From: a virus
Direction: 5' to 3' (one strand)
DNA: 64,000 nucleotides
Virus record (IMG/VR): IMGVR_UViG_3300032313_000500
Span: 1 to 64,000 of that record
Shown here: one piece after another, positions 31,018-51,690 of the stretch
Numbering within the stretch: position 1 is the stretch's first letter
Layout: the number at the start of each line of letters is the position of its first letter
Position numbers and translations under genes: made by a program
The notes under the pieces: model-generated
What the model saw: only the letters and a program-made list of their open reading frames with translations
What the model was told of the DNA's origin: nothing
The model's database searches: none

Positions 31018-34000
31018 ATGAGTCAGCAAGACATTCAATTTAAAGCCATTCCTGGCCAGTTCAACATTGACGAGGCTCAGGGCGTAGTTGAGTGTTTCGT
31101 CGCAGGTATCGGCAACAAAGATTCGGTTGGCGACGTTTTGATTACTGGGGCATTTACTAAAAGCCTTACCCGCCGCAAGCCTCGTGTTGTTTGGGGTCAC
31201 AACTGGAACGACCCAATCGGCAAAGTCCTTGAAATATATGAAGTTGCACCTGGGGATAGAAGACTCCCATCCAAGATGTTAAATGCTGGAATTGGCGGCC
31301 TTTACGCAAGAGTTCAGTTCAACCTCAACTCAGAAAAAGGTCGTGAGGCATTCGCCAACGTCGCTTTCTTCGGTCAAGAGCAAGAATGGTCAATCGGTTA
31401 TAAAACGCTTGATTCAATCTTTGACCCGAACATCCAAGCAAACATTCTAAAAGAAGTAGAACTTTACGAAGTATCGCCAGTACTACATGGTGCTAACCAA
31501 CTAACTGGAACAATTTCTGTAAAGTCTGACGAAACAGCCGAGAAGCACATGCCGGGAATGATGATGCCCCACCACGAAGGAATGGGTGCTGGTCCTAAAA
31601 TTGTTGTCGTAAGACAAAGCAACGATGACGACGACGATAAGCCGATTTTCTCAGAAGGTCTCGCTCAGGCACTTGGTGACAACGAAAAAGAAAGATTGAC
31701 ACGCGAACTGCAAGCCAGAAGCGGTTCATCAATTCAATTGGTTTCCGCTACAGAGAGTACGGCAAAGTTTAGAAGAATGACTTCTGATGGTCGTTCCGTA
31801 ATGTACAGAATTGGATACCACACTCCAGACAATTACGTTACCTTCATGTTTGGAAAGCCGGAACTGGCGGAAAGCCAACAACCGGGCGGTTCACGCACTG
31901 TTGTTCCGTCACAGATGCCTTCAATGCCAATGCAGGTTAAGCCACGAGTAACAACTGACTCAACAAACTATGTTGTTAGCCCTGAATACGTAATGCCAAA
32001 AGGCGAAGATTACGAAAAGTCAGCCTTTGACGAAGAACTAGAAAATCTTGCTCAAATTCTTGATGAGACATTTGATGTAAAAGTTGGAAGAACTCTTAGT
32101 TCTCGCAACATGTCAAAACTAAAAACTGTCCTAGAGACACTTCAGGATATTGTTTCATCAGCAGAAAAAGATGTTGAGTCAAAAAGCGATTACATCATTC
32201 CTGTCAAACTGGAAAATGCGTTTGAGACCAAGCAGTTACTTGACCCAATTTTTGATTACCACAGAGTTGAATCTCATGTGACAGAAGACGGAATAGTCAT
32301 CACAACAGGGGTAACTCAAGAATTTATAGAGGCCATTGGCGTGGCCGAAAAAGCCTTGGGGCGAACGCTGAGCGGTGGCCTGGGAAAATTAGGCCGCGCC
32401 GGTAGGGGCGCGGTAAACTTTGACCCAAAAGCATGGGACGGTGACGGAGACGGAATCGTACAAGAAGGAACACCGTACTCACGTCCAGCAATACCTGGAG
32501 TAAATGACCGCGCATCTGGCGGAAGAGTTGATGCCACTGCTGCAACCCGTGCATGGCAAAATCAACGCAGAGCCGGAATGGCATCACGTACTGGCCGTAT
32601 GGATGCAGATGACAACTTTGACGAATACGACGAAGCAATGGGTCCACCAATGCGTCGTGCAGGTAGAGGAATGGCTGAAGACCCAACTGGCGACGCTGCT
32701 TCAGAAAACCTTGATAGGGACAGAAACGCTGGCGCTGTAAGAAGAGGATTGAGTTCAAGCACACCAAAGCCTCGTAAAAAGTCAACCGATTACAAAAAAG
32801 ACAAAAACTACACAGACCTTGACGATGACGACAAGAAAATTGTAGACGTAATTCAAGAAGCAATAGAAAACGGCGAGATAACGGGTGAAAGTTATTGGTC
32901 GGATTGGGTGAGTAATACTCTTGGTGACTGGAGTCTGCAAGAACAGTACGAGGCTATTTATGGCAGGTCTGCTACTAGTGAAGACTTTCAAGAATCTGCC
33001 GACCAAAGCGGCAGTCGGTACAGAGATGGTGAAGGAAGATATGATGACGACATTGAGGAAGAATTCTATTCCGAATCAATAGCGGATGCATCCCCTCGTG
33101 AGAAACTAATAGGGCTAGTTGGAGAATACATGCCTGAGGGTTCAAAGTATGGCGACAAAAAGCACATTGCTGCACTTCGTCAATCTTTTTCTTCTGGAAG
33201 AAGCGGACTCAGTTCAAGCACTTCAGGTTCTAGAGGAAAACCGGAGCCGTTAAAGCGCGAGGGCGAATTTCACGGTGGGAATATCTACGACGAATTCAAT
33301 GGTCAATATGTTGAAGGTGAAGTAGTTGCTTTATCCGACCTTTATGGCGACGACAGACCAGGGTATGGAATAGTTGGTAGATACGACAGCGACGGAAGTG
33401 GCACTGTTGATTATTTCTACGGCGGAACGGACGACGAAGAATTTGAAACCATTGAGGATGCTATAGCGTTCTTGGAAAATGTTGAAAACGAAGCAGAAAA
33501 CGACAGATTCTATAACGAACCTGAATTTAGAAGCGTAGACCGTAAGCGTTCTGCTGGTAGACCTGGCGAAAGACCACTTGCAGGGTTTTCATCAAGCACC
33601 GCAGAGGTTGTGTCAAAAGATGACTTGCCAAAAGAACTTGTAAACGACGTAGCAAATGCTGCAGTTCGCGCCGTGGGCCGTAGTGGTGACGAGACACGAC
33701 TTATTGATGGGGCTAAAGAAGTATTGGCAAACCTTACTAGCGAAAAATTAAAAGACAGCGTCGGTAAGTCTATATCCAATGCAAGAAAACGATTAGCAGA
33801 AATGCTTTCTGACGAAAAAGTCATTGAAGAATTTCAGTCAAGAAAAGCAATTGAAGATTTTATGGACGAAGTGGGCTATGCCGTTCAAGAGATGCTTGAT
33901 TTACATGTTGGTTCTGTTAAAAAAAATGGAACCTCTGTTGAAAAAGAAGAAATTGAAGAAATTGTAGATAATGCAAAATCTAAATTTGATAATGATTTTA

Positions 34001-37000
34001 ATGAATTAGTTAAAGCGTCTAAAGAGTTTTGGAACAAGAGACGTAAGCCCGGCAGATTAGATGGCACTCCAGAAGAAGCAAAAAAAGAAGCAGCAATAGA
34101 TAGAAAAAATTTGATGGAAACCCTCAGGGAGGGTGGAGAGCCAGAAGACCTTGAATCAACGCTTGGTTCAATTTTTAAAATGTTTGATAATGATTCTGAA
34201 AAAATAATTTCCGGAACAATTTCTGTTGAAGATTTAAACTATCTAACAGAAAAAGCACTTGACCAAATTATTGAAAACGACCCATCAATTGACCCAGAAG
34301 AATTAGTAAACGAATTTGCTGAGGCTCTCCGTGAGGGAGCATCCAAGGATGGTGCAAACCCACTGATTGTTGCTTTAGCAAAAGAATTTGGCGATGAAAA
34401 GATTACTGGTGGCGACCTAATTGACTACCTGAATGACACTCGTCAAAATTCTGTTTACAGACCCGACAGAGGCAAGATTGAAAAAGAAAAACTTCGTGGC
34501 TTTGCTTCCAGGGTAGGCAATAACGACCCTGCCAACACTGGAGACGGAGAACGTGGTCTTGGTTCTTCATCCGATAAGCGTGAAATGGACATGACGCTTG
34601 CTGAATATGCAGAACTAGATAAAGTTCTTAAGAAATACATGGATGACAGCCAAGTAGACGGCATCGGTGCTGACGAAGACATGCAAGTAATTCAGGATAT
34701 TCTTGACAAACTTGATGAGAGTTCAGCCGCAAACGACTCAATTCCTCTTACGGACAAAGAAATTGACGACTACATGGACACTCTCACAAGAATGAGAGAC
34801 AACGGTCCAGTTGAAGATTTAGCAGATAAAGAATCAATAGACAAACTGATTGACTCCTTAAAGAAAACAAAAGAATCAACAGACGGAACCTACGAATCAG
34901 ATGCTCTTCAGCAGGCCGGAACAAGGCTCACTCCTCCTCCTGGCGGTCGTGGAAGAACCACAAAAGGCACTCGCCCATTCAAGAGTTCCAACGGAACAAT
35001 AAATCCACACAAAAAACTTGATTTTGAATTAGAAGATTCTGAAATTGGCGAACTTCGTGATGAACTTGATGGTTTTATGAAGATGACCAACAACCCTGGT
35101 CCACTTAGGGCTGTTGCTGAGAAACTAGAAAAAGCCACAAATGGCAAGTTTTCACTTGAAAAAGAAGAATACGAAGAAGTTGTAAAAGAAATAGAAAAAC
35201 TACGGACAGACAAAAAGATAGTTACATCAGACGTAATCGGACTTCTTGAGCAAGCAGCAGAATCCAAAAAAGGAAAGTACTCAAGCATTGAAGTCAATGG
35301 CGGACGAGGTTTCTCATCATCTACTGGTGGTGGCAAGAACAATGGAGCACCATCCGACATTCCCGAGACAATGCAAAAGCAATTACTCATGTGGGCTAGA
35401 CAGCAAAGAGGTCTTAGGCTCGCTCAAGAATCAGTTGAGAAGTTTGACAGGGACAAAGGAACTCTTCCAGCATCACATTGGAGAAGACTGCGCACCTTGT
35501 ATGAGAACATGGGACCAGGCTCAGCCAGTGGCGCTGCTCGCAGTGGTGGACGCAGAGGCATCTTCGGCCGTGGAAAAGATACTTCTCCGACTACGCAGGT
35601 TGGTCGTGGACCTTCCGCTGAAAGCAAACCACTACCCCAAGGCCTGCTTGATAACACAATGTCAAAAAATCCAATTGTCACAGATGGATTTACGGACATG
35701 AGGTCTGGAAGCATGGGTGGCTCACAGGGCGGAGGCGTATTCAAAGACCCAAAGACTGGTCAGGAATATTACATCAAGCCAGCAAAGACGCAGACTCATG
35801 CAGAAAACGAATCGCTAATGTCTCGTCTCTATGAAAGAATAGGTATTCCTGTTGCGAAAGTAAAAGTAGGAACCTACAAAGGTCGTCCAAAAATTGTTAG
35901 CATAATGATTCCAGGAGCAGAAAAAGTCAACCACGAATCCGAGATGAAAAAACCGGCGTGGAAGAAGGCGGTTCAAGATACTTTTGTGGCTAATGCGTGG
36001 CTTGCAAACTGGGACGCTGTTTCAAACGGCGGAAATACCATTAGGGGCGGAGACGGCAATGCGTACGTCGTTGATGTTGGCGGTGCTGGTCTTTTCCGAG
36101 CAAGAGGAGAAGCAAAGGGCTCGGCGTTTGGTCCTATCGTCGGGGAAATGGAATCCTTGAGAGACCCCAAACAGGACGGCGCTCAACGCGGTGTTGCATA
36201 CTGGGGAGATATTCCACCAGCAGAAATTGCTCGTCAGGTAAAAGTAATTGGAGCAATATCCGATTCTGAAATCAAACAAATGGTTGATGCGTTAATTTCT
36301 GACAAGGGTGAAGCAAAGAAACTTTCTGACACTCTTATTGCACGACGTGACTATCTCGTTCAAAACTGGAGCACTGGCAAAAACAGTGGCTCCGGCAGAA
36401 GAGGTCGTACTGGCTTTTCATCTAGAACAGACCCTAGCGACCTTTCCGACTACAGACCACCCCGGCGCACGCCTGGCGGAGTACCGGCAATGAGACCTGC
36501 CGATTTTGAAGTGCGAGCCGATAGCGAAGGCGTCACTGGTGTTGGCAAGGGTGGGGCAATGGGAACAAAGCCTGACAAAAAATTCTCTGGTGACTCTTTT
36601 GACCAAGTTAAGCCAGACAAGTGGGATGAACTCACAATTGACGAAAAATGGGAATGGATGCTTGGCGAAGGAAACCCTGAAAAGGGCGGAACCATGTCTC
36701 CTGCTGCGTACGAGGGCGCTATGAAGAAACTTGGCGACGAAGAAGCCAGAGAAGAAGCAAAGCGGATGTCTCCAGAAGAACGGAGAAAAGCCCGTACCGA
36801 GTCAAGAGAGAGCCAAAGAGCGCAACTTTCCGACAACGAAAAAGAAAGAATCTCTGCTGAAAGAGCAAAGCGTCAAGCAGATGCAGAAAGCCAATCCAAG
36901 CGAGTCAAGGAAGAGGCAACTGCAGAAAAAGCACAAGCCAAGAGACAGGCGCTTCTTGATGGTTTCAACGAATGGATTGATGACTCAGTCCGTCAACTTT

Positions 37001-37890
37001 CAGAAATGGAATATGACGGAACCGACATCAACCCTGATGCCGACGATATCTGGGACACCGTTTCCACAATCCTTGGCGTCAATGACATTACACCAAAATC
37101 CCTAAACGAAGCAATTGAGGAACTTTCATCATACGTTGACGTTAATTCACCTGGGGAAAATGCTTATGAAAAGAAGAGCATTGCCCGTGCCAACGCATTA
37201 TTGAAGAAACTTTCAAAGATGAAATCAGAGTATTCGGAAGACAAATGGTTCAACGGCAGAGAAGGCAGAAGGTCTGGATTTGACTCCAGAACTGGTGGCA
37301 GGCCACGTCCTGGAACCCCAGAAATGCCTCAATCAAACGCCAAGCGCGAGGGAGACATAAAAAGACTTTCCACACTGATTGAGCAGGTTGTCGCAGAACT
37401 TGAAGCAAAACGTCAAAACCCTTCACCCAAAAAGGGTCGCATGGGCTTCTCTTCGTCTACCGGAAAGACCATGATTACCGACGAAGCGACATTCTTTAAG
37501 GACATTGAGAATTCTCTTGCAAAAGAAATTAGAGCCGCACAGAAGGCCAAGAACACCAAGGCAATTACAGGGCTAACTAAACTTCAAGAAATAATCAAGA
37601 GAAACGAAGCATCCAAGACTGGCGACAGAAGAACAAATGTCGGAAGCATATACATGACGATGGATGAAGTTGACCTAATTCTTGACGGTCTTCAGTTTGC
37701 TCTTGACCAACAGGTGGACGCCGGTGGAGATAAGAGAATTGGCTGGTACTCAAAGTTGATTGAAAAGATTGCAGCAGCAGCCATGTCTACATTTATTGAT
37801 AAAAGCACAACAGAGATTGGTTCAACCAGAAGAACAGTCACCAACAAAGATGGCGTAAAGAAAAAAATCAATATTGTCCCAGAAGCATAA
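31018..37890 (+). CDS. Prohead protease fused to a giant multidomain polyprotein
   Basis: A 2290-residue protein; ATG at 31018 follows AGGAG. Residues about 1-170 are an HK97-type prohead protease (S78): PRVVWGHNWNDPIGKV holds the catalytic-type His, QEWSIGYKTLDS the Ser, and 'EVELYEVSPVLHGANQLTG' the end strand. After that come an EF-hand-like loop (DGDGDGIVQEG, about 474-484), charged helical segments, and a kinase-fold domain at about 1570-1780 (EYYIKPA, ANWDAVSNGGN, VVDVGGAG). Charged coiled-coil regions follow to the end. At least ten G-[FLM]-x-S-[SR]-[TS] motifs, nearly all after basic residues, lie between the domains. Ordinary proteases of this family have about 200 residues. The rest is probably cargo or scaffold processed during head maturation. 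Confidence 0.8.
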   Translation: MSQQDIQFKAIPGQFNIDEAQGVVECFVAGIGNKDSVGDVLITGAFTKSLTRRKPRVVWGHNWNDPIGKVLEIYEVAPGDRRLPSKMLNAGIGGLYARVQFNLNSEKGREAFANVAFFGQEQEWSIGYKTLDSIFDPNIQANILKEVELYEVSPVLHGANQLTGTISVKSDETAEKHMPGMMMPHHEGMGAGPKIVVVRQSNDDDDDKPIFSEGLAQALGDNEKERLTRELQARSGSSIQLVSATESTAKFRRMTSDGRSVMYRIGYHTPDNYVTFMFGKPELAESQQPGGSRTVVPSQMPSMPMQVKPRVTTDSTNYVVSPEYVMPKGEDYEKSAFDEELENLAQILDETFDVKVGRTLSSRNMSKLKTVLETLQDIVSSAEKDVESKSDYIIPVKLENAFETKQLLDPIFDYHRVESHVTEDGIVITTGVTQEFIEAIGVAEKALGRTLSGGLGKLGRAGRGAVNFDPKAWDGDGDGIVQEGTPYSRPAIPGVNDRASGGRVDATAATRAWQNQRRAGMASRTGRMDADDNFDEYDEAMGPPMRRAGRGMAEDPTGDAASENLDRDRNAGAVRRGLSSSTPKPRKKSTDYKKDKNYTDLDDDDKKIVDVIQEAIENGEITGESYWSDWVSNTLGDWSLQEQYEAIYGRSATSEDFQESADQSGSRYRDGEGRYDDDIEEEFYSESIADASPREKLIGLVGEYMPEGSKYGDKKHIAALRQSFSSGRSGLSSSTSGSRGKPEPLKREGEFHGGNIYDEFNGQYVEGEVVALSDLYGDDRPGYGIVGRYDSDGSGTVDYFYGGTDDEEFETIEDAIAFLENVENEAENDRFYNEPEFRSVDRKRSAGRPGERPLAGFSSSTAEVVSKDDLPKELVNDVANAAVRAVGRSGDETRLIDGAKEVLANLTSEKLKDSVGKSISNARKRLAEMLSDEKVIEEFQSRKAIEDFMDEVGYAVQEMLDLHVGSVKKNGTSVEKEEIEEIVDNAKSKFDNDFNELVKASKEFWNKRRKPGRLDGTPEEAKKEAAIDRKNLMETLREGGEPEDLESTLGSIFKMFDNDSEKIISGTISVEDLNYLTEKALDQIIENDPSIDPEELVNEFAEALREGASKDGANPLIVALAKEFGDEKITGGDLIDYLNDTRQNSVYRPDRGKIEKEKLRGFASRVGNNDPANTGDGERGLGSSSDKREMDMTLAEYAELDKVLKKYMDDSQVDGIGADEDMQVIQDILDKLDESSAANDSIPLTDKEIDDYMDTLTRMRDNGPVEDLADKESIDKLIDSLKKTKESTDGTYESDALQQAGTRLTPPPGGRGRTTKGTRPFKSSNGTINPHKKLDFELEDSEIGELRDELDGFMKMTNNPGPLRAVAEKLEKATNGKFSLEKEEYEEVVKEIEKLRTDKKIVTSDVIGLLEQAAESKKGKYSSIEVNGGRGFSSSTGGGKNNGAPSDIPETMQKQLLMWARQQRGLRLAQESVEKFDRDKGTLPASHWRRLRTLYENMGPGSASGAARSGGRRGIFGRGKDTSPTTQVGRGPSAESKPLPQGLLDNTMSKNPIVTDGFTDMRSGSMGGSQGGGVFKDPKTGQEYYIKPAKTQTHAENESLMSRLYERIGIPVAKVKVGTYKGRPKIVSIMIPGAEKVNHESEMKKPAWKKAVQDTFVANAWLANWDAVSNGGNTIRGGDGNAYVVDVGGAGLFRARGEAKGSAFGPIVGEMESLRDPKQDGAQRGVAYWGDIPPAEIARQVKVIGAISDSEIKQMVDALISDKGEAKKLSDTLIARRDYLVQNWSTGKNSGSGRRGRTGFSSRTDPSDLSDYRPPRRTPGGVPAMRPADFEVRADSEGVTGVGKGGAMGTKPDKKFSGDSFDQVKPDKWDELTIDEKWEWMLGEGNPEKGGTMSPAAYEGAMKKLGDEEAREEAKRMSPEERRKARTESRESQRAQLSDNEKERISAERAKRQADAESQSKRVKEEATAEKAQAKRQALLDGFNEWIDDSVRQLSEMEYDGTDINPDADDIWDTVSTILGVNDITPKSLNEAIEELSSYVDVNSPGENAYEKKSIARANALLKKLSKMKSEYSEDKWFNGREGRRSGFDSRTGGRPRPGTPEMPQSNAKREGDIKRLSTLIEQVVAELEAKRQNPSPKKGRMGFSSSTGKTMITDEATFFKDIENSLAKEIRAAQKAKNTKAITGLTKLQEIIKRNEASKTGDRRTNVGSIYMTMDEVDLILDGLQFALDQQVDAGGDKRIGWYSKLIEKIAAAAMSTFIDKSTTEIGSTRRTVTNKDGVKKKINIVPEA

Positions 37891-37999
37891 ATAGTGTGCG
37901 TTCTCGCCCAGAGGGGCGTGCTACGTTATACTTTTATAAACTATTCATAATGTGATATTGACACTCGTGTCTTTACTCGCTAAAAAACAGGAGTTACCA

Positions 38000-39376
38000 A
38001 TGAGCGAAAAAGTTGAAGTCAGTGTTGATGCGGACGGCAATGTTCTTAAGTGCGCTAAGGGCGCAAATGCTGCCGATTGCGGGTTTACACCAGGGGCAAA
38101 AGTTTGTGGCAAGTGCGGAGCAATGCCTATTCAGATGAAGATGGTCCCAGTCACTGATGATGACTATGAAGTCAAGGGTGGCGATAACTGGGACGACAGC
38201 GCCATGTTTAACGCTATGAAAAAGCGTCAAAAGGGCATGGGTATGGGTATGCCTGACGAAGAAGACGAAGAAGAAATGCCAATGAAGGGTATGGGCTACG
38301 AAGAAGAAGACGACGAAGAAGACGACTTAGTTCCCATGAAAACTTCAAAGAAGAAGATGTCTCTTGAAATTGAAGAAGACGACGAAGAAGAAGACGACGA
38401 AGACGAGTTGTCCATGGACGGAGAAGTTGACCTAGAGGCAGCAAGAAAGAAGCGCCTTGCCAGCATGGGTGAAAAAGTTGCAGAACTCGGCAGAAATGCA
38501 TACATGTGTGCTGTTGAAAGAAAAGTTTACCCAGGTGGTTCAAGCGTTTGTGACGACTGCCCTGGTGGGTGTTTGCCAGAGCGCGGAATGCCAGGACTTC
38601 TTTCAGTTGAAGGAATTGCTGAACAAATGTTTCAGGGCAAGGTTCTTGACTCTGGATACTCTTCAGATGCAGACATGTTCGTAGTTGACATTCAATCAAA
38701 GAGCGGCCGTGCCGTTGAAGTATTTATTGACGGTACAACTGCAGAAGTTCTTGGTTTCCACAAACTTGACGACAACGCTTTTGAGCAAAAGTCAGCACTT
38801 GATTCAATGATGGTTATTGACTTCCATGAAGCAGCAGAAATTGCTGTTAAGTCTATTCAGGGTGACGTTGTTGCAGTTGAGCCAGACATTTTTGAAGGCT
38901 TTGATGCATACGCAGTTGAGATTGAAGGTCTTGATGGAAAGTCATACGATGTGTTTGTCTCTCTTGACGGTGAAGTTCTTGGATACGATAAGTACGAGCC
39001 AGAAGAAGCAGAAGCAATTGAAGCAGAAGCCGCAGAAATTGCATTAAAGCGTGCATTCAATGAAGACATGCGTACACAAATGGCGCAAGAAGGAAAAGCA
39101 CTTCCAGACGGCTCTTTCCCAATCTCCAACGTAGAAGACCTAAAGAACGCAATCAGCGCTTATGGTCGTGCAGGCGATAAAGAGGCAGCAAAAAAGCACA
39201 TCATGAAGCAAGCAAAGGCTCTCGGTCAGGAAAAACTAATTCCTGCTAACTGGGTAACTGGTGGAGCAAAAGTTGTTGAAGAGAAGTCCGGAGAAGTTGA
39301 CTCTGACCTTATGGCATCACTCGTTGAGTTTGAACTCCTTGAGGCCGAGGTTAAAGACGCAGACCCAACAATCTAG
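38000..39376 (+). CDS. Acidic protein with zinc-ribbon-like and PepSY-like domains
   Basis: 458 residues from the ATG at 38000 (AGGAG five bases earlier). N-terminal cysteines (LKCAKGANAADC, VCGKCG) suggest a zinc ribbon. A very acidic, Met-rich stretch spans about 85-150. A second Cys group (MCAVERK, VCDDCPGGC) lies near 165-195. Two PepSY-like units follow: 'DMFVVDIQSKSGRAVEVFID' near 225 and 'AYAVEIEGLDGKSYDVFVS' near 305. The end matches a common phage capsid-associated domain (SFPISNVEDLKNAISAYGRA...PANW). Located between the protease polyprotein and the next giant gene; probably a scaffold-like or head-associated factor. Confidence 0.6.
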   Translation: MSEKVEVSVDADGNVLKCAKGANAADCGFTPGAKVCGKCGAMPIQMKMVPVTDDDYEVKGGDNWDDSAMFNAMKKRQKGMGMGMPDEEDEEEMPMKGMGYEEEDDEEDDLVPMKTSKKKMSLEIEEDDEEEDDEDELSMDGEVDLEAARKKRLASMGEKVAELGRNAYMCAVERKVYPGGSSVCDDCPGGCLPERGMPGLLSVEGIAEQMFQGKVLDSGYSSDADMFVVDIQSKSGRAVEVFIDGTTAEVLGFHKLDDNAFEQKSALDSMMVIDFHEAAEIAVKSIQGDVVAVEPDIFEGFDAYAVEIEGLDGKSYDVFVSLDGEVLGYDKYEPEEAEAIEAEAAEIALKRAFNEDMRTQMAQEGKALPDGSFPISNVEDLKNAISAYGRAGDKEAAKKHIMKQAKALGQEKLIPANWVTGGAKVVEEKSGEVDSDLMASLVEFELLEAEVKDADPTI

Positions 39377-39392
39377 AGAAAGCGTGGCCCGT

Positions 39393-42300
39393 ATGACGGG
39401 GGTGAACATTAATAAAATTCGCCATTACGCGCCTGGATTCAATAATAGAACAACGCGTCTTGATGCGGATATGTCTGCATTGCTTTTCAAGGCGGGAACA
39501 AGAGTTATTTCATCATCGGAAAGACTAATAGCCGACGTCTCTATTAAGGCAGCAATGGGTGCAGGTGCTCCTGCCGATGATAAAAAAAGAGGCCTTCAAA
39601 GCGCTGGTAAATCAAAGTACATAAACATCAACGGTCTTGTTTATGACCCAGCAGCAAAAAAACAAGAAGGTCAATTCTTTAAACCGTGGATTACGGAAAG
39701 AGAAAGAATTAATGCCATGCGCTCAAGCGACCCAGTTCCCAACTGGGGATGGGTTGATGCGCATCCAGAGCATCAAAATAAACTTGAAGCGCCAAGGAAT
39801 TCAAAAGGCAAAGTAACAAGATATCCAGTAAATCCTAAAACTGGTGAGCCAATGAAGAACCAGGGGTTTGACCAAGAGTTCAAATCTCTTGGACCAACGC
39901 TTGGTGAAAGAAATCCTGGCGGAAAACTGCTTGCACGAACAGCAAAGGCCTTTGGTTTAGTAGTTGATGCTCTTGGAAAATTCAGATGCCCTCCCGGCAC
40001 TCCAGCAGCAAACAGGTTTACAAACGAAAGAGGCGAAGGCTGTTTTGATATTTCAGTAGCCCAAGTACGTAATTTGGTTGGTTCTTTAGCCGACTCAATG
40101 CAGGGACCGCAGAACAGGTCACAAATAGTGTCATCTCTTGCATCTGCGGGATTAAGTATTGCTGAAATTAGAAAGTCCTACAAAGAAAATGGTATTGCCG
40201 GACTAGCAAGCCTCGCACGGCGTGTAGGCATTGATTACGTCGGTGAAAAATGGAACGACATGTCATATGTTTCACAAATACCAGTAAGACTAAGAGAAAT
40301 TTCTGGCTTGACAATGGGCGCTCAGTCAAGAATGGAAAGAATTGTTCAGGAAAAGGCTGCAACAATTGATTTTCTTGCAGAATATTACGGCATAACGGAA
40401 ACTGATGAATATAAAAAAATTGGTGAAATAGTCAAAGCGATGTCTGCCGACCCGGACTCGCCTTTAGCACCAAATCAATTTGAACTTTTGTTTAGAGGTG
40501 GCACTCCAGAAAGTCATGAAGACTGGGCAATTGATGCGCTAATTGAAACACACATTGAGGCAATTAACCAAAAACTTGGACTTGGAGGAACTCCTGATGT
40601 AATTAGGAGAGACCCAGTAATGATGGCAAGAGTTGCTGCAGATGCAAAAGAAGAGTATCTGCGAGCAAAGGCCGCTGGCGAAGTAACGCCAATTACTCAA
40701 TTCATTGATGCTGGTTTGAGAAGAGAAAAAGATTTTAGACTCGGAGCGTTTGAGGATATGGTAATCGCCGCACATGAGCGACCTCATTCTTTCACCATGC
40801 CGAATGGAAGTAAAAGAACATACGTAGCAGATGTTGGTGCCGGATATCAATACGATAAAAATGGAGAGGCTTGGCCTGACACTATTTTAATCAACTCCGG
40901 ACCTGCTCTTCTTGGATTTAGAGATACTCCACCTGCTGGATACATGGACCTATACGAAGCAACAGGCGGAGATATTGACGACCAGTGGAGGGCAGTTGCT
41001 TCAGCAATGGATGCAGACGAGCGCCTCAGAGCATATGCAACGCTATGGGGTACCGACTTGGCGGCAACTGAAGGTCGTGGATGGAGAGATTTTGGAGCAC
41101 AAACCTCTGCTCATGAAAGAGCCCACTGGGGTCAAATGGATGCAATTTTCCAGTATCACGCAGATAACGGAACCGGAAGAAATATAGAAGACTTAAACAA
41201 CGATGAACTGATGGATTTAACTAAAGAATTCATGACAAAAGCATCACCAGAAATATTGAGTGACGTTTTTGGTATTGATATTGATGATTTAATTGATAAG
41301 CGTTTTGACGCTCTTGCTGGTGCTTATAGCCAAGTGAAGCAACAAGAGGCGCTTGGTGAATTGACGGGAGGAGGAACTTCTGAAGAATTTAACTATGCCA
41401 GAACTCTTGCGTTAATGGAGACGCTTGCGGAATTAAAGGCAAATAAAGCAGTCGGCCTAATAGGCGACGACCCGGAGTTGGATGCAATTCTTGAAAAAAT
41501 GGACCCACTACCACCTTTGACTGGTGGCTCAATATCCCCATCGGGTGGAATTGTTCCATCAAGACCCGATGGTTCTCCTGCTCCTAGGTTCGTGCCGTCT
41601 GGCCGCGTTAGACCAACACTCCCTGGTTCGGCACCAGCGCTGCCAACCAATGCTGGAAGGGTGGTTACAACAACTCCAGGAAGAAGTGGCGGAAGAGGCC
41701 GACGAGGACCGGTTGACCCGTTTGAAAAGGAAAGATACGGAAAAGTCCCAACGATGATTAAAGAGGGGCGCTTTACCCTTGAAGACATTGACGAGTTCCT
41801 GTATGGAGAAGACGGCAAAGGTGGACTCAAGCGAATGCTTGAAAGTGTTGCAAACATGCGCACTAAAAAGAACGGCTACACCGACCCAGCATTGGTTAAA
41901 AGAAAACGTCTACTTAATGAACTAGTTGACACAATGGGTATTTCTTTTCCCGAACTTGAAGCACTAGCGCTTAAAGCAAAAAGAGGAGAGTCTTTAACTC
42001 CAGAAGAAAAGTCAAAACTTGTTGACGCTATTTCACATTTAAGAAACGGTGCAAATGAGTTTAAGGCAAAATCTATTGAAGCAAGAAAGAAATTTGAAGA
42101 CTATCGGTCTGTTGATGTATCCAGGGCAACTGGTGACGGTTCCGAATACGACGAAAAAGATACGAACGTATTAAATCTTGAACAAATACAAGACGAAATT
42201 GAAATGTATGAAGCACTGTTCAATAGGGTTGGGCGCGGAATAGCGCCAGCAGTGCATGACATTCTTACAATGACAGAGAATGGACCATACCCTCACCGCC

Positions 42301-45077
42301 TAACCGCAAGAAGACCTGGTCCGCAACCACTTTTAGGAATTGATGTTGATGGTGCTGACGGCATTGCCTCAAGACAGGCTTCAAGACTCAGTCCGCAGGA
42401 ACTTTCCGCCCTTTCTTCTGCTGTAACGAATCCACCTAGAATTCTTTCATATCCAAACCCGCAAAACGTTCCTGAACTTACTTTACTTTTGGAAGATATT
42501 GAAGAGGTTAGACAGGTTTTTGAACGCAATAATTTAACACCACCAATTACCGTTGCGGATAATGAACTCCAAAATGCAGCCCCAGTTATGTCTGGATTGG
42601 ATAAATCGGTGCTTCCAAGCGACATGGTCGTTGAACTTGAAATTGATACGCCAGAAGACACTTCGCCAGGTTCAATCTATGAAATGTCTCAAATATCTTC
42701 GGCTCAACTCATAACGGATTCAAACACAGAGGAAGTTGATGTTCCACGGTCTGGTTTCTCTTCCACTACCGGAATGAGAACAAAGGCCGGAATTGCCGGG
42801 AGACTAATTGCAAGTAAGAGAACAAGAAAACTTCTTGAAAAAGCAGGAATTGACGCAGAAAGAACAGACGTTGTTCAGTTGATGAGTGAAGTTGCTATTG
42901 GTTTTTCGGTTGGAGGACCGTACGGCGCACTTATTCCTATAGCGCGACGTGGAAGCAGAGACGCTGCCGAGCAAGCGCTAAAAATGATGGTTGAACGCGG
43001 ATGGATTGAGCAAGACCTTGCTAACAAAATTGAAAAATATGGTCTTGACAGAATTGCCGCAGAAGGACTTCCTGACGAAATACTTAATTTAGCAGAATCG
43101 GCCAAAGACAGACTCTTAACGGAAGAATCAAAACGTAGGGCTCTTGATTTTGGTTCGGTTCTTCAAGAAAGAAGCATTGAATTATCTGAAGCAACTCGTG
43201 AAAAAGTATCAGAATTAGCCGACACAGGAAAAGAAAAGGCTCGCGAATTAGCAGCCTCGGGCATGGATAGAGCAAGAAGATTAAGAAGTCGCTTTGACAG
43301 GGACTCCGAAGAATTGGATGCAGGTGACCCGTTTTCCCTTCCTCCATCAGGTGGCGCTGTTGATATGCCTTCCCCATACGACGACCCATTTAAGTCCGCG
43401 TTTGTTGACATTGAGTTTAAGCAACTCGGTTCTTCAATCGGGGAGCAAAAGCAAGTTAAGAAAACCAAGGTAAGAGTTGCTGTTCCCGCTGGCTCAAAAG
43501 GCAAGATTGAATCAGGTAAAAGCAAGGCAAGCAACATGATTCTCCCTCCAGGAAAAGTAAAATTTACTGGAGTTGGCGAAGATGGAGTTCCTGAAGCAGA
43601 AATTACTGAACAGATGTCCGCTGAGGAATACATGAAGAATGTTGAAAAGATGTCTTCAGAAATTGCCTCATCTTCCAACAAACCAAGTCTAAAAAAGGCT
43701 GCAAAATTAAGAGCAGATACTGCTAAAAAAATGCGTCAAGAAATGACCGCCAAGTCAGGAACACCTCAGTCAATGTCCGGAATATCAAAAGTTGTATTTG
43801 ATAAATCAAACTCAATAATGGAAAGAGGAAAAGCGGCTGGTATTAATTTCTTCACTCTTGAAAAAGTAAAAAATGACGATACGGATATTGAGACATCCGA
43901 GTACGTGCGTATGTATCAAGAAAAACTTGTATCAACTATTAATAATTACAGCAAATCTTTACCATCTCGTCTTTTTGATGAAGAAATAAGCGCAGATACT
44001 AAAAAGTTTATTTACAGCAATTCAGTAAAAGAGATAGTTAAAGAGGTTAACAAAGTAGCAATGTTGATACACGAAGACATAGATAGAAGAGTACGTGTAT
44101 CAATGTCTAAATCTTCGTTAGAACAATTTGTTGGTTCTGGAAAAATTGCAAATATTGACGTTGATAGTGAATCTTTAAAGATTTTAAAAAACAAAAGAAA
44201 TTCAATGTTGGGTAATTCTCCTGGAATTAAAGAGTTTTCTTTTACTCCTGTTGAGTTTATGCACGGAGTAATGATTGAAAAAATTGAAAAACAACTTTAC
44301 GAAAATGGCACCCATGTTGGCTCCGAAGAATTTACAGATTACGGAAGAGGAATAGAACTTGTACTTCGCGCAGAAAATTCCCCAAGAATTGGATACGGAA
44401 GAAAAGAATCTTACAAAAACGGCGGAATTTTTGTACAAATAAACGAAGAAGACGAAAACCTTATTCAGGCTTCAATTTTTGGACAAATGTTTATGTCAAA
44501 AAATGGTGCAGAAGAATACTTGGCGGAGATTATTGAAGCAAGTCTTTCTGGTGACTATTCAAAACTAATAAAGAAAAATGACGAAGATGTATTTGAAGCG
44601 TTTATAGTTGGAGAAATATCACTTAACGATGTTGAGCACATCAAAATACCTTTGTCAATATTCAACATCAGAAAGAAAAGGGTCCCCAAGAGCAGCATGA
44701 TTGGTGGGGCAGACTCAATCAATATGATATTTATGAACAGAGGAGTTCCAAAAGAAAAAATTAAAGACTTCTTTGATAAAGACGGAACAATAGGTGGCGG
44801 ATACACGCCAAAGCATTTGTCTTACCTAAACGAGTTAGAGGCTGCAGAAGAATTTAAAGAAAACCTAATATCTCTAGGCATATCTGAAGTCATATTTACG
44901 AACAAAGACGGAATTGACATCATGAGTGAGGACACTTGGGTGACCCCACCTCCGACGAAGAAAAAGGGCAAAGACGCCTTGAAGGAGATAGCAAGAAAAG
45001 AAGTTATGTCAATTATTGACAAAATTGCCCCACCACCCAAAAAGCCAATTCCTAAAAAGGAGACTGCAAAGAAATGA
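39393..45077 (+). CDS. Giant head-module protein with HExxH metallopeptidase-like domain
   Basis: About 1894 residues; GTG at 39384 or ATG at 39393 are plausible starts, the longer frame overlapping the previous gene. A Cys motif near 195 (FRCPPGTPAANRFT...CFD) recurs in the 46046 protein. SAHERAHWGQ at about residue 572-581 holds HERAH, a zinc-binding HExxH. A Pro/Gly/Arg linker follows near 700-760, helical regions, RSGFSSTTG at about 1119, and a Lys/Glu-rich C-terminal third. A short 'VAVPAGSKGKI...MILPPGKVKFTGVG' segment near 1360-1390 looks like an ADP-ribosyltransferase tail but lacks a convincing front half. Function unknown; likely head-packaged. Confidence 0.6.
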   Translation: MTGVNINKIRHYAPGFNNRTTRLDADMSALLFKAGTRVISSSERLIADVSIKAAMGAGAPADDKKRGLQSAGKSKYININGLVYDPAAKKQEGQFFKPWITERERINAMRSSDPVPNWGWVDAHPEHQNKLEAPRNSKGKVTRYPVNPKTGEPMKNQGFDQEFKSLGPTLGERNPGGKLLARTAKAFGLVVDALGKFRCPPGTPAANRFTNERGEGCFDISVAQVRNLVGSLADSMQGPQNRSQIVSSLASAGLSIAEIRKSYKENGIAGLASLARRVGIDYVGEKWNDMSYVSQIPVRLREISGLTMGAQSRMERIVQEKAATIDFLAEYYGITETDEYKKIGEIVKAMSADPDSPLAPNQFELLFRGGTPESHEDWAIDALIETHIEAINQKLGLGGTPDVIRRDPVMMARVAADAKEEYLRAKAAGEVTPITQFIDAGLRREKDFRLGAFEDMVIAAHERPHSFTMPNGSKRTYVADVGAGYQYDKNGEAWPDTILINSGPALLGFRDTPPAGYMDLYEATGGDIDDQWRAVASAMDADERLRAYATLWGTDLAATEGRGWRDFGAQTSAHERAHWGQMDAIFQYHADNGTGRNIEDLNNDELMDLTKEFMTKASPEILSDVFGIDIDDLIDKRFDALAGAYSQVKQQEALGELTGGGTSEEFNYARTLALMETLAELKANKAVGLIGDDPELDAILEKMDPLPPLTGGSISPSGGIVPSRPDGSPAPRFVPSGRVRPTLPGSAPALPTNAGRVVTTTPGRSGGRGRRGPVDPFEKERYGKVPTMIKEGRFTLEDIDEFLYGEDGKGGLKRMLESVANMRTKKNGYTDPALVKRKRLLNELVDTMGISFPELEALALKAKRGESLTPEEKSKLVDAISHLRNGANEFKAKSIEARKKFEDYRSVDVSRATGDGSEYDEKDTNVLNLEQIQDEIEMYEALFNRVGRGIAPAVHDILTMTENGPYPHRLTARRPGPQPLLGIDVDGADGIASRQASRLSPQELSALSSAVTNPPRILSYPNPQNVPELTLLLEDIEEVRQVFERNNLTPPITVADNELQNAAPVMSGLDKSVLPSDMVVELEIDTPEDTSPGSIYEMSQISSAQLITDSNTEEVDVPRSGFSSTTGMRTKAGIAGRLIASKRTRKLLEKAGIDAERTDVVQLMSEVAIGFSVGGPYGALIPIARRGSRDAAEQALKMMVERGWIEQDLANKIEKYGLDRIAAEGLPDEILNLAESAKDRLLTEESKRRALDFGSVLQERSIELSEATREKVSELADTGKEKARELAASGMDRARRLRSRFDRDSEELDAGDPFSLPPSGGAVDMPSPYDDPFKSAFVDIEFKQLGSSIGEQKQVKKTKVRVAVPAGSKGKIESGKSKASNMILPPGKVKFTGVGEDGVPEAEITEQMSAEEYMKNVEKMSSEIASSSNKPSLKKAAKLRADTAKKMRQEMTAKSGTPQSMSGISKVVFDKSNSIMERGKAAGINFFTLEKVKNDDTDIETSEYVRMYQEKLVSTINNYSKSLPSRLFDEEISADTKKFIYSNSVKEIVKEVNKVAMLIHEDIDRRVRVSMSKSSLEQFVGSGKIANIDVDSESLKILKNKRNSMLGNSPGIKEFSFTPVEFMHGVMIEKIEKQLYENGTHVGSEEFTDYGRGIELVLRAENSPRIGYGRKESYKNGGIFVQINEEDENLIQASIFGQMFMSKNGAEEYLAEIIEASLSGDYSKLIKKNDEDVFEAFIVGEISLNDVEHIKIPLSIFNIRKKRVPKSSMIGGADSINMIFMNRGVPKEKIKDFFDKDGTIGGGYTPKHLSYLNELEAAEEFKENLISLGISEVIFTNKDGIDIMSEDTWVTPPPTKKKGKDALKEIARKEVMSIIDKIAPPPKKPIPKKETAKK

Positions 45078-46077: not shown

Positions 46078-48067
46078 TAGAGAAATAAATTTCGTTAAAA
46101 GAAGAGTTGCCCTACTTTCCGTAAAGACGGTACGTAAGGTAAACCCCGTAATTACCATGCGCCTAAACGGCCAGCAAAACGTAATAGATTACAAGGCCTT
46201 AGCAAAACGTTCTGGACTAACACGAAAGTACAGCGTGAAGGTTGGAATACTTGGCACGCACTCAACAATCGGCCAGGCTGCTCAATCTGCAATTTCTGCT
46301 GCAACTCCAGGAAACCTGAGCCCAATAAGAAGCCCGATTCGTTCTGGCTTATGGGGTGCCTTAACTCCTGGAAAGCCAAGAATTCCAGGTGGAACTGGTG
46401 GGGCAAATCGTGCCAGTCGTTGTCCAGAGGGATATCAGTATGGCGGTCGCTTTACTGACTCTCGTTTTTCTACATGTGGGGCAAAACTCTTTGACATACC
46501 TTCCGCTATTGGTTTAGCAATTGGCGCACTGAGAAGGATAGCCCGTGGCGCTAGAGCGGTTTCTGGAGACTCAACTCCAATCACTGGCGAAACTCCACCA
46601 GAGTCAATAGTTCAATCAAGACGTCCACAGATTCCAAGAGTCGGAAATCCCAACCCTGCAGCACGCGCGGCTGCGGCAAAAAACATCGTCTCTCAAATTG
46701 GGCAGACAGACGCGGCAGTCGTAAGAATGGTCAGAAAAGACGGTTTCGCATTGGAGCCAGTAGTCTCAGCGCAAGTACTCAGAGCAATCCCCGACAACAG
46801 GGACATGGAAGGCGCTGACTACATATTGTCAGTTCAGGACCTTCCACAACTCGGTGGCCAAGAACTCGGACTTTTATCAAATACCGGCGTTACTAAACTC
46901 ACCTATGTTTTGCCAGGTGGCTCAACCCTCTCGCTTGAAAAGAAGAGGCAACTCACTGTTGGTGAAAGAAGAAAACTTGGGCGCACCGTTAATGCTGCAT
47001 CAAAAATTGACATATCAAACGACCCCACTGCTCGCCTAAAAGAAGTCGTTGCTCAAACTGGGGATGGAATAGGTTATTCGGAAAACTTTTTAAACATCAA
47101 GAACCCAAATGAGGTGGTTTCTAAAGGTGGAAAGTCGGTTCCGAGATGGGCTGACGAATTGTTCGGCAAGGGAAGAAAAGCAAAGCCTGCAGCCAATGCA
47201 GAAAGAGCAACAGATTCAAGTAGTGCTGTGGGTAAAAACATCACAAGTGTTGACGCTGCAGTTGACCAGATAATGTCCGGAAGACCACTTTCTGAAATTG
47301 ACCCAATGATTTTGCAACAGGCTCTTACAAAGGCAAACGTATTTAAGAGACAAAAATTGGACCGAAGAAGAGAAATGCTTGAAACGCCAAATGGCAACAA
47401 GTACATGCTCTATTCCTCGTCTGGCAAATATGAGCACCTTGGTCAAAAACTTGCAAGCGATATCCAGCAGCACCTTGGTCTTGAGTCACCTGACGTTTTC
47501 TTTGTTGGCGAGGGAGATAAGAGAAAGTACATAGTGGAGGACCCTTCTTCTCTAATTAGGGGATTCCAGGTTGACCGTAGGCGTAAATTCTCCGACTACA
47601 AACCGGAAGATGTAGCAAAAATGCTTGTTTCCGACTGGCTTACGGACCAGAGAGAAAGAGACCCAGGCTCAATTGTTCCTGTTTCAAACGGAACTGACAC
47701 AAAGCCGGTTGTTACCAACAACTTCACTTCTGGACTTACTGACCTTGACCAAGTGTCAATTGTTGAGCGTCAAAAACTAACATTATCTCAATTCATGGAC
47801 GCAAATAGGGCTGAGACTTACTCGCAATATTTCCAAAATTTACAGCAACAACAGAGATTTGCCTTCAGAAGAGAGATTGACGCTCTACTATTAAGAGCAA
47901 GACAATTTAACTTTACACAATTTAAAAATCGCCTTTACAACGATGGTCGCTTAACCGACGCAGAAAAAGCACACCTGAACATCGTTGGGCGCATTCTGGA
48001 AATAAGAATTCAAAACTATGCAGGTAGTAGGGAAATTTTAATGGAAATCCTCGGAGTCAAAAAATGA
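46046..48067 (+). CDS. Large head-module protein with Cys motif and degenerate kinase-like domain
   Basis: 673 residues from ATG 46046; starts at TTG 46070 or ATG 46158 are also possible. A Cys motif at about 130-150 (SRCPEGYQYGGRFT...CGAKLFD) matches one in the 39393 protein. Residues about 440-590 (NKYMLYSSSGKYEHLGQKL, ...KMLVSDWLTDQRERDPGS) run in parallel with the kinase-fold domain of the protease polyprotein. The DxxxxN and DxG residues are replaced, so it may be inactive. The C-terminal 100 residues are helical. It overlaps the preceding and following genes by a few bases. Confidence 0.55.
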   Translation: MILNRTTTLSNREINFVKRRVALLSVKTVRKVNPVITMRLNGQQNVIDYKALAKRSGLTRKYSVKVGILGTHSTIGQAAQSAISAATPGNLSPIRSPIRSGLWGALTPGKPRIPGGTGGANRASRCPEGYQYGGRFTDSRFSTCGAKLFDIPSAIGLAIGALRRIARGARAVSGDSTPITGETPPESIVQSRRPQIPRVGNPNPAARAAAAKNIVSQIGQTDAAVVRMVRKDGFALEPVVSAQVLRAIPDNRDMEGADYILSVQDLPQLGGQELGLLSNTGVTKLTYVLPGGSTLSLEKKRQLTVGERRKLGRTVNAASKIDISNDPTARLKEVVAQTGDGIGYSENFLNIKNPNEVVSKGGKSVPRWADELFGKGRKAKPAANAERATDSSSAVGKNITSVDAAVDQIMSGRPLSEIDPMILQQALTKANVFKRQKLDRRREMLETPNGNKYMLYSSSGKYEHLGQKLASDIQQHLGLESPDVFFVGEGDKRKYIVEDPSSLIRGFQVDRRRKFSDYKPEDVAKMLVSDWLTDQRERDPGSIVPVSNGTDTKPVVTNNFTSGLTDLDQVSIVERQKLTLSQFMDANRAETYSQYFQNLQQQQRFAFRREIDALLLRARQFNFTQFKNRLYNDGRLTDAEKAHLNIVGRILEIRIQNYAGSREILMEILGVKK

Positions 48068-51000
48068 AAAAAGTATCTACCCTATTTGATGCACTGCGTA
48101 ATGAAAAATTTGCTATTGCTATTCAAGATGATTATGGAGTCAAATACTATGGCTCCGAAGGCCAGGGAAAAGAATGGTCCGACTGGGCCAACTCTCTTAG
48201 CACCAAAACTATTGACGCAAACAATATTCCAGCAGGAATCATTCAGGGGCCCTACAAAAACATTAGCGAGCATTCCTTAAAGTCATTGCTGACTGCTTTT
48301 GGAAACAACATTAGCGAAATTGGCAACTCCTATACAGACTCCAAGTCATACTCTTACAAAAGTTCTGTAAAGATGGACAACGGTGCCCGTGTTCCAGCAG
48401 TAATGGATACACCAATTGGTCACTTTACCAAGTCCCAGTATTCAAGCGCTGTGAATTACAAGGGTCTTGCTATTCGCACCCAAATCAAAGAGGGAAGTTT
48501 TCTTTTTGAAGCAAGAGCAAACAATTACGCATTCAACTTTGACAACTGGATGTACAACTCAACCCCGTCAAAAGCCGAAATAAAGTCACTTCGTCACAGA
48601 ATTGACACAAACGTAGGTCGTTCTTCCGAAAGACGTCTGGGCATGAAATTTAAAGCCGCTCTTGTTGAAAGAGATGGACGCCACAGAGTTGGTTACGCGC
48701 AAACACTGGAAACCAAATCACTTGAAGACTCTCTTGAGTTGAAAGGAATTGGTCAAAGAATAGGTGGAGGAGCACGCATCGGCAGAAGAGCGGCTCGCAG
48801 TATGGCCATGTTTGACCCTAAAGCATGGGACGGCGATGGCGATGGCGTAGTGCAGGAAGGTACACCCTTTGAAAGACCTGCAATTCCCGGCATCAACGAC
48901 AGGGCAACTGGCGGTGCTGTTGACGCAGATGCTGCGAAGAAGGCATGGAAAGAATTTCAAAAGAATCCAGGCAGTTCAACGCCTTCTAGAGAGTTGAGTC
49001 CTGCACGCAGAGCCATGCGCGAAGGAAGCCGCTCAGTAGGAAGACAAGTTCTCACTAACCGTAAGCCAGCGGCAGCGGGTCGTAAATTACCTGACTCAAA
49101 ACCAATCAAGAGAAGCGGTCTTGCATCAAGATTGCCTGGCGACAAAAACGAAGCAGGAGTCAACCCACTAGTAGCAAAAGAAGTAGTTCGCAAAATAGAA
49201 GATGTTCTCTATAAACGAGACACATTAGATTCATTCAGTGCTTTCATTGATGGACTTGGTCCAGACGGTGGTCAGGAATTAAGTGCTGAACAAGTTTTTG
49301 ACATAAAAGAAGCAATCCAGTTGTACGACAATGAAGAATACGACATGGACGACCTTTACAGCAGTGTTTCAGCAGCCGTCACCAGAAAGAAGCCCGACGC
49401 TAAACCAAGTCAATCCGGAATGCGTTCACGTGTTGGTAAAGCACAAATGGACAGACAAGTTAATGGTCTCGCATCACGAAGTGGTCGTTCTAAGAAAAAA
49501 TCAAAACTGAAAGCAGTACCAGGACTTGACAAGGTTGACGAACGAGATGGTTCCCTATGGGCGTCTTTGACACCAGAACAGCAAGAAGTTGTAAAGAAAA
49601 ATACTCAAACAGCATATGAAAGACTTCAGACATCCATCAAAAAAGACAAGTATCTCAGCACGTGGTGGGATGAATTTTTACGTCTTCCTCGCAAAAAGGG
49701 AGCAACAGACGCTGACGGTAATGAGTGGTCTGAGCAATCAAGAATTGCTGGAGAGGCATTCACTTCTTTTGAAGTAGCAATAAACAGGTCAATTGACGGC
49801 GCAAATTCAGAAATACAAGCCGACGAGAGAGCGCTTGCAGCAATGAGACCTACAGGGTCTGATGCTGAAATTAAAAAAGCAGAAAACAGAATTGCAAATA
49901 AGAAGAAACAGGTTCAAAGAATTCAAAAAATTCTAGACGACCTTAAAACGTACGACCAAATGGACAAAGCCGATGACTGGTCGCTTCTTGAACACCTTCA
50001 CCCAGAACAAAGAAAGAAATCTTTCGGTACTGGATTGCAAAAAGATGAAATAAATCTGATTGTTAGCCCTTTTGCTGATGGAAAACTTCCAAAGGGAATG
50101 AAAGTTGGAGAACCATCAACAATTTTTGAAGAAATTGGTGGAGTTAAAAGAGCAAAGCCTCGTATTATCGGAGAAAAAGGTGATGCAAAACTTGCAGACT
50201 TTGCAGACAGAATTCTTCGCCCCAACCCAGTAAGGGCGGAAAGAAGAAGACTACGAAAGGCCGGAAAAGGTAAGACGTTCACAGAAGAATCGCCACGCGA
50301 AAAAATCTCAAAAGTTAAAAGAAGAATTTCTAAAGCAAAACGTCAAGTACAAAGCAAGATTCGTGGAAAGCGCAATCCAGAGAATATTGAAAGCGCTTTG
50401 GAAAAAGTCAGGAAACGTAACACTCCACTTATCGGCAGAGACAAAGACGACAATCCGGTTATCTCTCGCGAAACAATTGAGGGTTTTGCAAAACTGCTAA
50501 GAGGATACAAGCCTTCGGAAAAAAGAACCAAAGATGGAGCGACCAAAGGTAAGAACGCCGACTCGTTCCTTGGACAAATCTGGGACTCACAAAACTTCTC
50601 TGCACTTCCTACAGCGATAACTGAAGAAGAGGCCAGGGAACTAATATCTTTAGGATGGACACCAATTCAACGTGGGCATGGAGGAACAACACCCTCCCAG
50701 GCAGCCTCATGGGCGGAAGATTATATTTACGACCCTAGAAGATTTATTACTGGAGAAGGTGGACAAGCAGTAGGCCCTGGAGAATACTGGGCCCACCCTG
50801 AGAGCACCGGATGGGACAGTTGGATTAGAGGTCAATCTTCAAACACTGCAACACTTGCTTTCTTGCCACCTAACTCAAAAGTCCTAACGGAAGCGCAAGC
50901 GTCAAAACTTCAACAGGACGGCAATAGTATTGCAAACGCAATCGGTGGATACATAACTGGTGCTGGTAGTGGTGGAAAAGCGGAAGAACTTGACCCACAA

Positions 51001-51360: not shown

Positions 51361-51689
51361 TGTCTGAAGACGAATTTGTAGAAAAACACCGTGAGTACTC
51401 CGTGTACGCAGACTGGCCTCCGTTTTCAATATCTAGCAAAAAAAGAAATGACTATCTTGAAGATGTTGTTAAAGAAGACAGACGAATAGTTTCAAAAATT
51501 AACGCCAAAGACGAAGATGCATTTGAAAGAATGTACTCAACCGTAGAGGTTAAGTGGTCTGACGACCTTGAAGAAGCCCGCCTCTACCAAAAGAGGTATG
51601 GCAAAGAAAAGATTGACGCATTTCTCGCTGCTTTAGAACTGGAAGGTCTTGAAGAAGACAGCGACGGCGTTCCATTTGGAATTTTTTAA
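51360..51689 (+). CDS. Small hypothetical protein coupled to the ART-like gene
   Basis: A 109-residue acidic protein. ATG at 51360 shares a base with the stop of the preceding gene (TAATG). Contains 'YSVYADWPPFSISSKKRNDYLED' and a helical C-terminus (EEARLYQKRYGKEKIDAFLAALELEG). Strong coupling to an enzyme-like gene suggests a chaperone, inhibitor or loading partner, but nothing in its sequence proves that. Confidence 0.55.
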   Translation: MSEDEFVEKHREYSVYADWPPFSISSKKRNDYLEDVVKEDRRIVSKINAKDEDAFERMYSTVEVKWSDDLEEARLYQKRYGKEKIDAFLAALELEGLEEDSDGVPFGIF

Positions 51690-51690
51690 T

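Follow-up and report, generated by a model that had tools for sequence, protein, structure and literature searches.

Eukaryotic RNA viruses make polyproteins that carry a protease within the chain and repeated short sites at the domain borders. Among the usual substrates of S78 prohead proteases is the capsid. Polyvalent proteins are encoded by phages and plasmids; peptidase release of their domains has been proposed, and that source also draws an analogy to RNA virus polyproteins (Iyer et al. 2017, PMC5512222). Among head proteases, T4 gp21 recognises L/I-x-E and phiKZ gp175 recognises S/A-x-E (PMC9026906), while the SPN3US gp245 site is A-x-E, with Ser favoured at P1' (PMC10052503). Moreover, the virion anti-restriction protein DarA is cut by P1 Pro (PMC12810830), and the tape measure of T5/DT57C is proteolytically processed during assembly, near its C-terminus (PMC10713586).

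The locus analysed here has the look of polyvalent proteins arranged as a cassette polyprotein that is punctuated by a motif and whose code is particular to each phage. As in the polyvalent proteins, these are huge phage multidomain chains with ArdC-N, MPTase-PolyVal, other effectors and embedded peptidases (PMC5512222), and many unrelated effector or counter-defence domains share one phage polypeptide, as judged from the kinase of our locus and the domains of its relatives. However, no inter-domain recognition motif was found in a search of PMC5512222, whereas here one spelling per phage serves both the module borders and the tape measure, and a prohead protease is in most cases fused to the array. 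A comparable case is that of T4 gp21 (which acts on the internal proteins and Alt), phiKZ gp175 and SPN3US gp245, head proteases of related fold that process many internal, ejected proteins at a very short P3-x-P1 motif (PMC9026906, PMC10052503). In those phages the sites have Glu as their last residue and serve mainly to strip propeptides from proteins with genes of their own; in contrast, we found a hydrophobic-x-Ser (Phi-x-Ser) site, up to about 20 modules per chain, respelling between close relatives and a capsid protein without a clear copy of the site, unlike the capsid protein of T4 and phiKZ, which is cut at the same motif as the internal proteins. Phi-x-Ser fits the P3-x-P1 grammar, although the residue at the putative P1 is Ser or Gly where those phages have Glu. 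T4 also uses an N-terminal capsid-targeting sequence that is later removed; here a DGDxDG leader lies upstream of the motif arrays and might play such a loading role. As in viral polyproteins, the sites fall at module borders and outside domains. Unlike the RNA virus polyproteins, however, this putative one is encoded by a DNA phage with a tail; its site also occurs in trans, in the tape measure and in further giant cargo genes, and we infer the cutting. The candidate tape-measure sites, near aa 42 and aa 560-800 and spelled as the cargo sites, also differ from the T5/DT57C case.

The window, that is, the whole stretch of 64,000 nucleotides analysed, spans the initial 64 kb of a virus record of 118 kb. 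The polyprotein gene has the portal gene (28852-30909) upstream and the major capsid gene (55257-56615) downstream; further giant ORFs come after it, and the cargo genes sit between the portal and capsid genes. Note that the portal carries a PGMPGMPP collagen-like repeat at about 30080-30250, also present in relatives. The features of the polyprotein gene are as follows.

31018..37890, plus strand: S78-headed cargo polyprotein, a single open frame of 2290 aa; full-length relatives are 74-100% identical
31084..31524, plus strand: S78 prohead protease domain, aa 23-169 (Pfam PF04586, E 3e-11, above cut-off)
32419..32496, plus strand: leader FDPKAWDGDGDGIVQEGTPYSRPAIP, immediately upstream of the motif array
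32575..32592, plus strand: motif 1, GMASRT; G-M-A-S retained in all aligned relatives
32746..32763, plus strand: motif 2, GLSSST, at a module border; 153- and 279-aa indels begin here
33205..33222, plus strand: motif 3, GLSSST, at a module border
33583..33600, plus strand: motif 4, GFSSST, at a module border
34498..34515, plus strand: motif 5, GFASRV; relatives continue with a different module
34555..34572, plus strand: motif 6, GLGSSS (alignment of relatives)
35308..35325, plus strand: motif 7, GFSSST (alignment of relatives, AlphaFold model)
35731..36372, plus strand: predicted kinase module of HipA/CtkA type, aa 1572-1785 (Foldseek match with CtkA at E 4e-4 and probability 1.0)
36412..36429, plus strand: motif 8, GFSSRT (alignment of relatives, AlphaFold model)
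37276..37293, plus strand: motif 9, GFDSRT (alignment of relatives, AlphaFold model)
37444..37461, plus strand: motif 10, GFSSST (alignment of relatives, AlphaFold model)

A first-pass annotation of this DNA had claimed that a prohead protease heads the 2290-residue chain, and both the PF04586 match and the match of the N-terminus to PHROG 80, head maturation protease (E 1e-27), confirmed this within one open frame. The ten motifs that it had listed all start exactly at the bases given. G-[FLM]-x-S-[RS]-[TSV] is present ten times in the frame, and for the pattern G[FLM]xS[RSTE][STVMI] the ten observed copies compare with 0.18 on average, and never more than 3, in 5000 local shuffles, in which residues were permuted within 20-residue windows so that local composition was kept. 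These shuffles ruled out a composition artefact of Ser/Gly-rich linkers. In 6/10 copies, R stands at position -2 relative to the motif G.

In the S78 domain, H61 and S125, which from knowledge of the family we take to be the catalytic residues, are invariant across 20 relatives; a Foldseek search with the N-terminal model returned no more than weak similarity to herpes proteases (E about 1 or more). In most relatives, S78 and the motif array are fused. In G012 it forms its own 491-aa gene, and the next gene opens with the leader and the motif array; this and the other stand-alone S78 genes (G031, G021, G027 and G024) stop near what is aa 446 in the window, before the leader. The leader itself, with the consensus FDPxAxDGDxDGxxQxGTxFxRPxIP, recurs 5' of the motif arrays of giant cargo ORFs (window 32419-32496, 48811-48888 and 52414-52491; near aa 62 in L222), and PHROG 7924 matches at it. 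By its sequence, the DGDxDG leader is similar to a calcium-loop-like tag and could serve as a signal for loading into the head.

Scans with the portal and capsid proteins gave a broad clade among metagenomic virus contigs (about 200 portal matches among environmental virus contigs), from which full polyproteins of up to 4740 aa were retrieved. We searched each protein without bias for its most over-represented gapped pattern, against locally shuffled controls; almost all related polyproteins, or else their companion ORFs, yielded a short motif. The spelling is set per phage (GFxSxT, GFAS, GLAS, RGMxS/RGMAS, LGSR, GFASR, R[LF]SSG/RLSSG, SLSSG, GLSSG, GSKSxT/GSKSTT, GMRS or ISGRM, the variant patterns being partly picked after data inspection), and nearly all copies of each phage use its own. 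The shared core is Phi-x-S; the exceptions are the ISGxM group of three phages, with Gly for Ser, and GSKS, which has no hydrophobic residue. A few S78 proteins, such as those of G001, G021 and G027, are without their own motif, yet other giant ORFs of the same genomes carry one; in G020 no motif was detected in the S78 protein or the other giant ORFs.

Among 190 register-aligned orthologous copies from phages of different spelling, identity was 0.48 to the orthologues and 0.65 to the same-genome paralogues, scored over five variable core positions and partly circular, since the classes are defined by spelling. The contrast of the flanks is free of this circularity: 6-12 residues from the motif, identity was 0.16 to orthologues and 0.08 to paralogues. 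Homologues in which the motif is lost and its neighbours are kept would have spoken against the first-pass annotation, by its own account, and the opposite was found: copies of the own variant persist while the flanks diverge across spelling classes. A general actinophage trait was considered and rejected: in the stretches examined, the giant ORFs of Gordonia phages GMA6, DalanDe and Sixama, and likewise those of Brevibacterium phage Cantare, Streptomyces phage Gilgamesh and Actinomycetia phage DSL-LC01, have no repeated motif. No relative turned up when bacterial genomes were scanned for the polyprotein, and the scan thus gives no pointer to the host. Judging from its nearest cultured relatives, the clade may infect freshwater Actinobacteria.

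We aligned the close relatives of the polyprotein (eleven loci, 74-100% identity). They differ by whole cassettes, with modules gained, lost and reshuffled and the borders at the motif. For example, GLSSST and 279 aa come after AVRR in the window; L002 and L006 are without these, and there AVRR is joined directly to the next motif, GFSSETAEVV. Clean motif-to-motif indels were also seen in L003 (aa 582-707), L029 (685-862) and L036 (1270-1568), and segment 1161-1180 is replaced by two different cassettes in different relatives. Moreover, 19-22% of the edges of homology blocks (at least 50% identity) fall on the motif, compared with 4.4% at random, a 4-5x enrichment that is gone below 35% identity. 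The modules of the relatives are recognisable as ArdC (ArdcN and MPTase-PolyVal), UvrD helicase, sigma-70 region 4, KTSC, RNase_T, NUDIX and GNAT; in the window, the Pfam HipA_C match to the polyprotein is below cut-off. In the polyproteins of the relatives, 0/99 motifs lie within a Pfam domain unit, compared with 17.7 expected, and at least one motif lies between neighbouring domains in 16/17 pairs. In five phages, which between them use three spellings, ArdC begins 2, 3, 4, 12 and 15 aa beyond a motif. That the motifs avoid domains, part domain pairs and precede ArdC is the clearest indication of a motif that separates independent proteins. The first-pass annotation had also proposed comparing the motifs with AlphaFold domain borders. 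In models of aa 1-1165 and 1150-2290, all ten motifs were in segments of pLDDT <50, with folded stretches between most of them, which agrees with linkers predicted to be disordered; note that the models average 57 and 62 on shallow alignments, where low pLDDT is not proof of disorder.

The spelling of a genome recurs in its other large ORFs and rarely in other genomes. The correct assignment of spellings to genomes alone reached the observed total (1 of 40320 permutations), with a close runner-up (45 vs 43), as hits are few in one genome and certain spellings overlap. In the window's virus, copies beyond those of the first-pass annotation start at 42753; 49117, 49417 and 49465; 52672; and, in the tape measure on the minus strand, 15364, 13669 and 13636. 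The genes concerned, and others discussed below, are as follows.

10811..15487, minus strand: tape-measure protein, 1558 aa (PHROG tape measure, E 3.5e-4)
15347-15364, 13652-13669 and 13619-13636, minus strand: tape-measure motifs GLASST, GFASRT and GFASRT
39261..45077, plus strand: cargo ORF of 1938 aa, with a HERAH metallopeptidase-like motif and GFSSTT at 42753-42770
48064..51360, plus strand: cargo ORF of 1098 aa, with the leader at 48811-48888 and GLASRL 49117, GMRSRV 49417 and GLASRS 49465
51649..54900, plus strand: cargo ORF of 1083 aa, with the leader at 52414-52491, GMASSG 52672, Pfam Zeta_toxin (E 8e-9) and HEWFH
55257..56615, plus strand: major capsid protein, own variant absent
L222:2560-12225 = G000:66560-76225, plus strand: second polyprotein of the window's virus, 3222 aa, just beyond the window
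G000:112009-112629 and L224:8006-8629 (minus strand): proteasome-like subunit (PF00227), which almost every larger relative has

The second polyprotein has no S78 domain and carries about ten motif copies at module borders, and four of its modules have HExxH metallopeptidase-like motifs; no Pfam domain was detected in it, and a sequence search against solved structures was empty. The same kind of search with the 48064 ORF found nothing, and its C-terminus is ART-like by eye only, without database support. The zeta-toxin-like kinase and HEWFH share one cargo protein directly upstream of the capsid gene, and a Cys signature, RCPxG...RFT...C, is common to the neighbouring cargo ORFs 39261-45077 and 46046-48067.

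The tape measure bears the spelling of its own genome in 18/20 cases, compared with a permuted mean of 4.2 and a maximum of 12; two of the patterns were widened post hoc, and the original ones give about 16/20. Its sites typically lie near aa 42 and in a Gly-rich linker at about aa 560-800, and two conserved sites switch spelling with the genome. As the first-pass annotation had remarked, the capsid protein of the window shows no copy: the variant of the phage is absent, with just a weak LKS, and across 12 capsid proteins, aligned over their N-terminal regions, the own variant was not found. Near-copies, LSSR/LSSH at the delta junction, occur in some LSSG phages. The motif was therefore rejected as a capsid maturation site, the variant being absent from the capsid or, in the LSSG phages, ambiguous. 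As a separate observation, the C-terminus of the acidic ORF 37952-39376, DGSFPISNVEDLKNAISAYGRAGDKEAAKKHI, resembles that of the Gordonia phage DalanDe capsid protease, and this ORF is a possible scaffold piece.

These results strongly support that the motif is a conserved inter-module site that acts like one signal for one phage-specific factor. We consider it fairly probable that the locus encodes a cassette polyprotein with phage-specific sites for one reader, likely a protease, from which about ten products are released and injected. In this scheme, in which we infer the cutting, S78 as the cutter, the packaging and the injection, the S78 protease, the DGDxDG leader and about ten cargo modules, including the HipA-like kinase, would be translated as one chain, each module flanked by a short Phi-x-S site in a predicted disordered linker. 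One phage-encoded reader would recognise the sites wherever they occur, in the polyprotein, in further giant cargo genes or in the tape measure; a single reader of all sites is the simplest explanation for one spelling per phage. The reader would most likely be a protease, with S78 as the leading candidate, since the Phi-x-small spacing, by analogy with the head-protease sites of T4 and phiKZ, makes it the first suspect. Cutting would free roughly ten proteins, which would accompany the DNA into the next host.

A simple prohead model is opposed by the capsid without a clear motif, the nearly invariant S78 and the tape measure, which is outside the head, though T5-like phages offer a precedent for processing of a tape measure as virions assemble (PMC10713586). 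The S78 domains of GFxST and GLAS phages share 95.5% identity (7 residues apart), and in the S78 alignment across motif classes no clear specificity position was found that covaries with the motif class; few S78 changes could still alter the substrate pocket. The first-pass annotation had read the motif as a recognition site of the protease or an inter-domain hinge. Its inter-module conservation, its maintenance at the protein level and its behaviour towards one reader were borne out; cutting at the motif stays a prediction and S78 a candidate cutter, given the capsid without the variant, the 95.5% identity and the tape measure, a tail protein, that carries the variant.

Shuffling of cassettes at the motif would also be expected from a DNA recombination repeat, or from a linker spread by duplication or gene conversion without protein function, and in L196, L198 and L187 the codon identity among copies exceeds expectation, which suggests that some arrays also grew by duplication. 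In the window, however, the identical-codon frequency among copies is 0.27 compared with 0.28 expected (L200 is similar), and the Gly and Ser codons of the motif vary fully, including TCN/AGY. Because synonymous codons vary, the window motif is kept by selection on the protein; the codon identity ruled out gene conversion of DNA repeats in the window. The two conserved tape-measure sites also change spelling with the genome. A DNA repeat is largely refuted for the window and, overall, very improbable. Another reading is a binding site that is never cut, gripped by a chaperone, the capsid lining or an ejection factor that holds cargo and tape measure unfolded or tethered: a co-evolving partner would equally make the copies of a phage agree, and both kinds of chain, the cargo as well as the tape measure, would be ejected. 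Placement at near every border, ArdC at 2-15 aa after the motif and motif-to-motif exchange are nevertheless better explained by module separation, and we regard binding alone as improbable.

Somewhat less unlikely, though still doubtful, is a protease site read by another phage protease, be it an embedded MPTase/HExxH module or the subunit of proteasome type (PF00227), that would act inside the infected cell or once ejected. Embedded metallopeptidases of polyvalent proteins were proposed to release domains (PMC5512222), and MPTase-PolyVal was found in relatives. Another cutter would also suit the fact that tape measure and head cargo share the site, though only the cargo would meet a head protease. 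The proteasome-like gene follows the presence of the motif among the larger records: it is present in every tested record of at least 118 kb, and among the larger ones only G020 (117 kb), which is also motif-less, is without it; however, the gene is also present in DSL-LC01, whose examined stretch shows no motif. Proteasome-type chambers are not known to make single site-specific cuts, and this subunit is a weak rival as the cutter. The fusion of S78 to the array in most relatives likewise speaks against another cutter.

In a more general form, we tentatively propose that tailed phages make true polyproteins, with one protease and some 20-40 sites in giant cargo genes and the tape measure that are respelled together between close relatives. 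Such a co-evolving code would let cassettes swap at the linkers, with each phage processing only its own chains. In the openly available literature searched, which included papers on phages of freshwater bacteria, no description of such a coded polyprotein was found. If true, this would explain how many different takeover proteins are loaded from one gene, and would provide a sequence rule for splitting unannotated giant phage proteins into their real products. It would also offer a series, ready-made in nature, of proteases paired with their sites, in which to follow the joint change in specificity of a protease and dozens of sites, and would make one-factor processing of tape-measure and head-cargo proteins testable.

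Finally, downstream of the capsid gene, the window encodes on the minus strand, at 59842-61884, an adenosylcobalamin-type ribonucleotide reductase (RNR_Alpha, RNR-II insertion domain).
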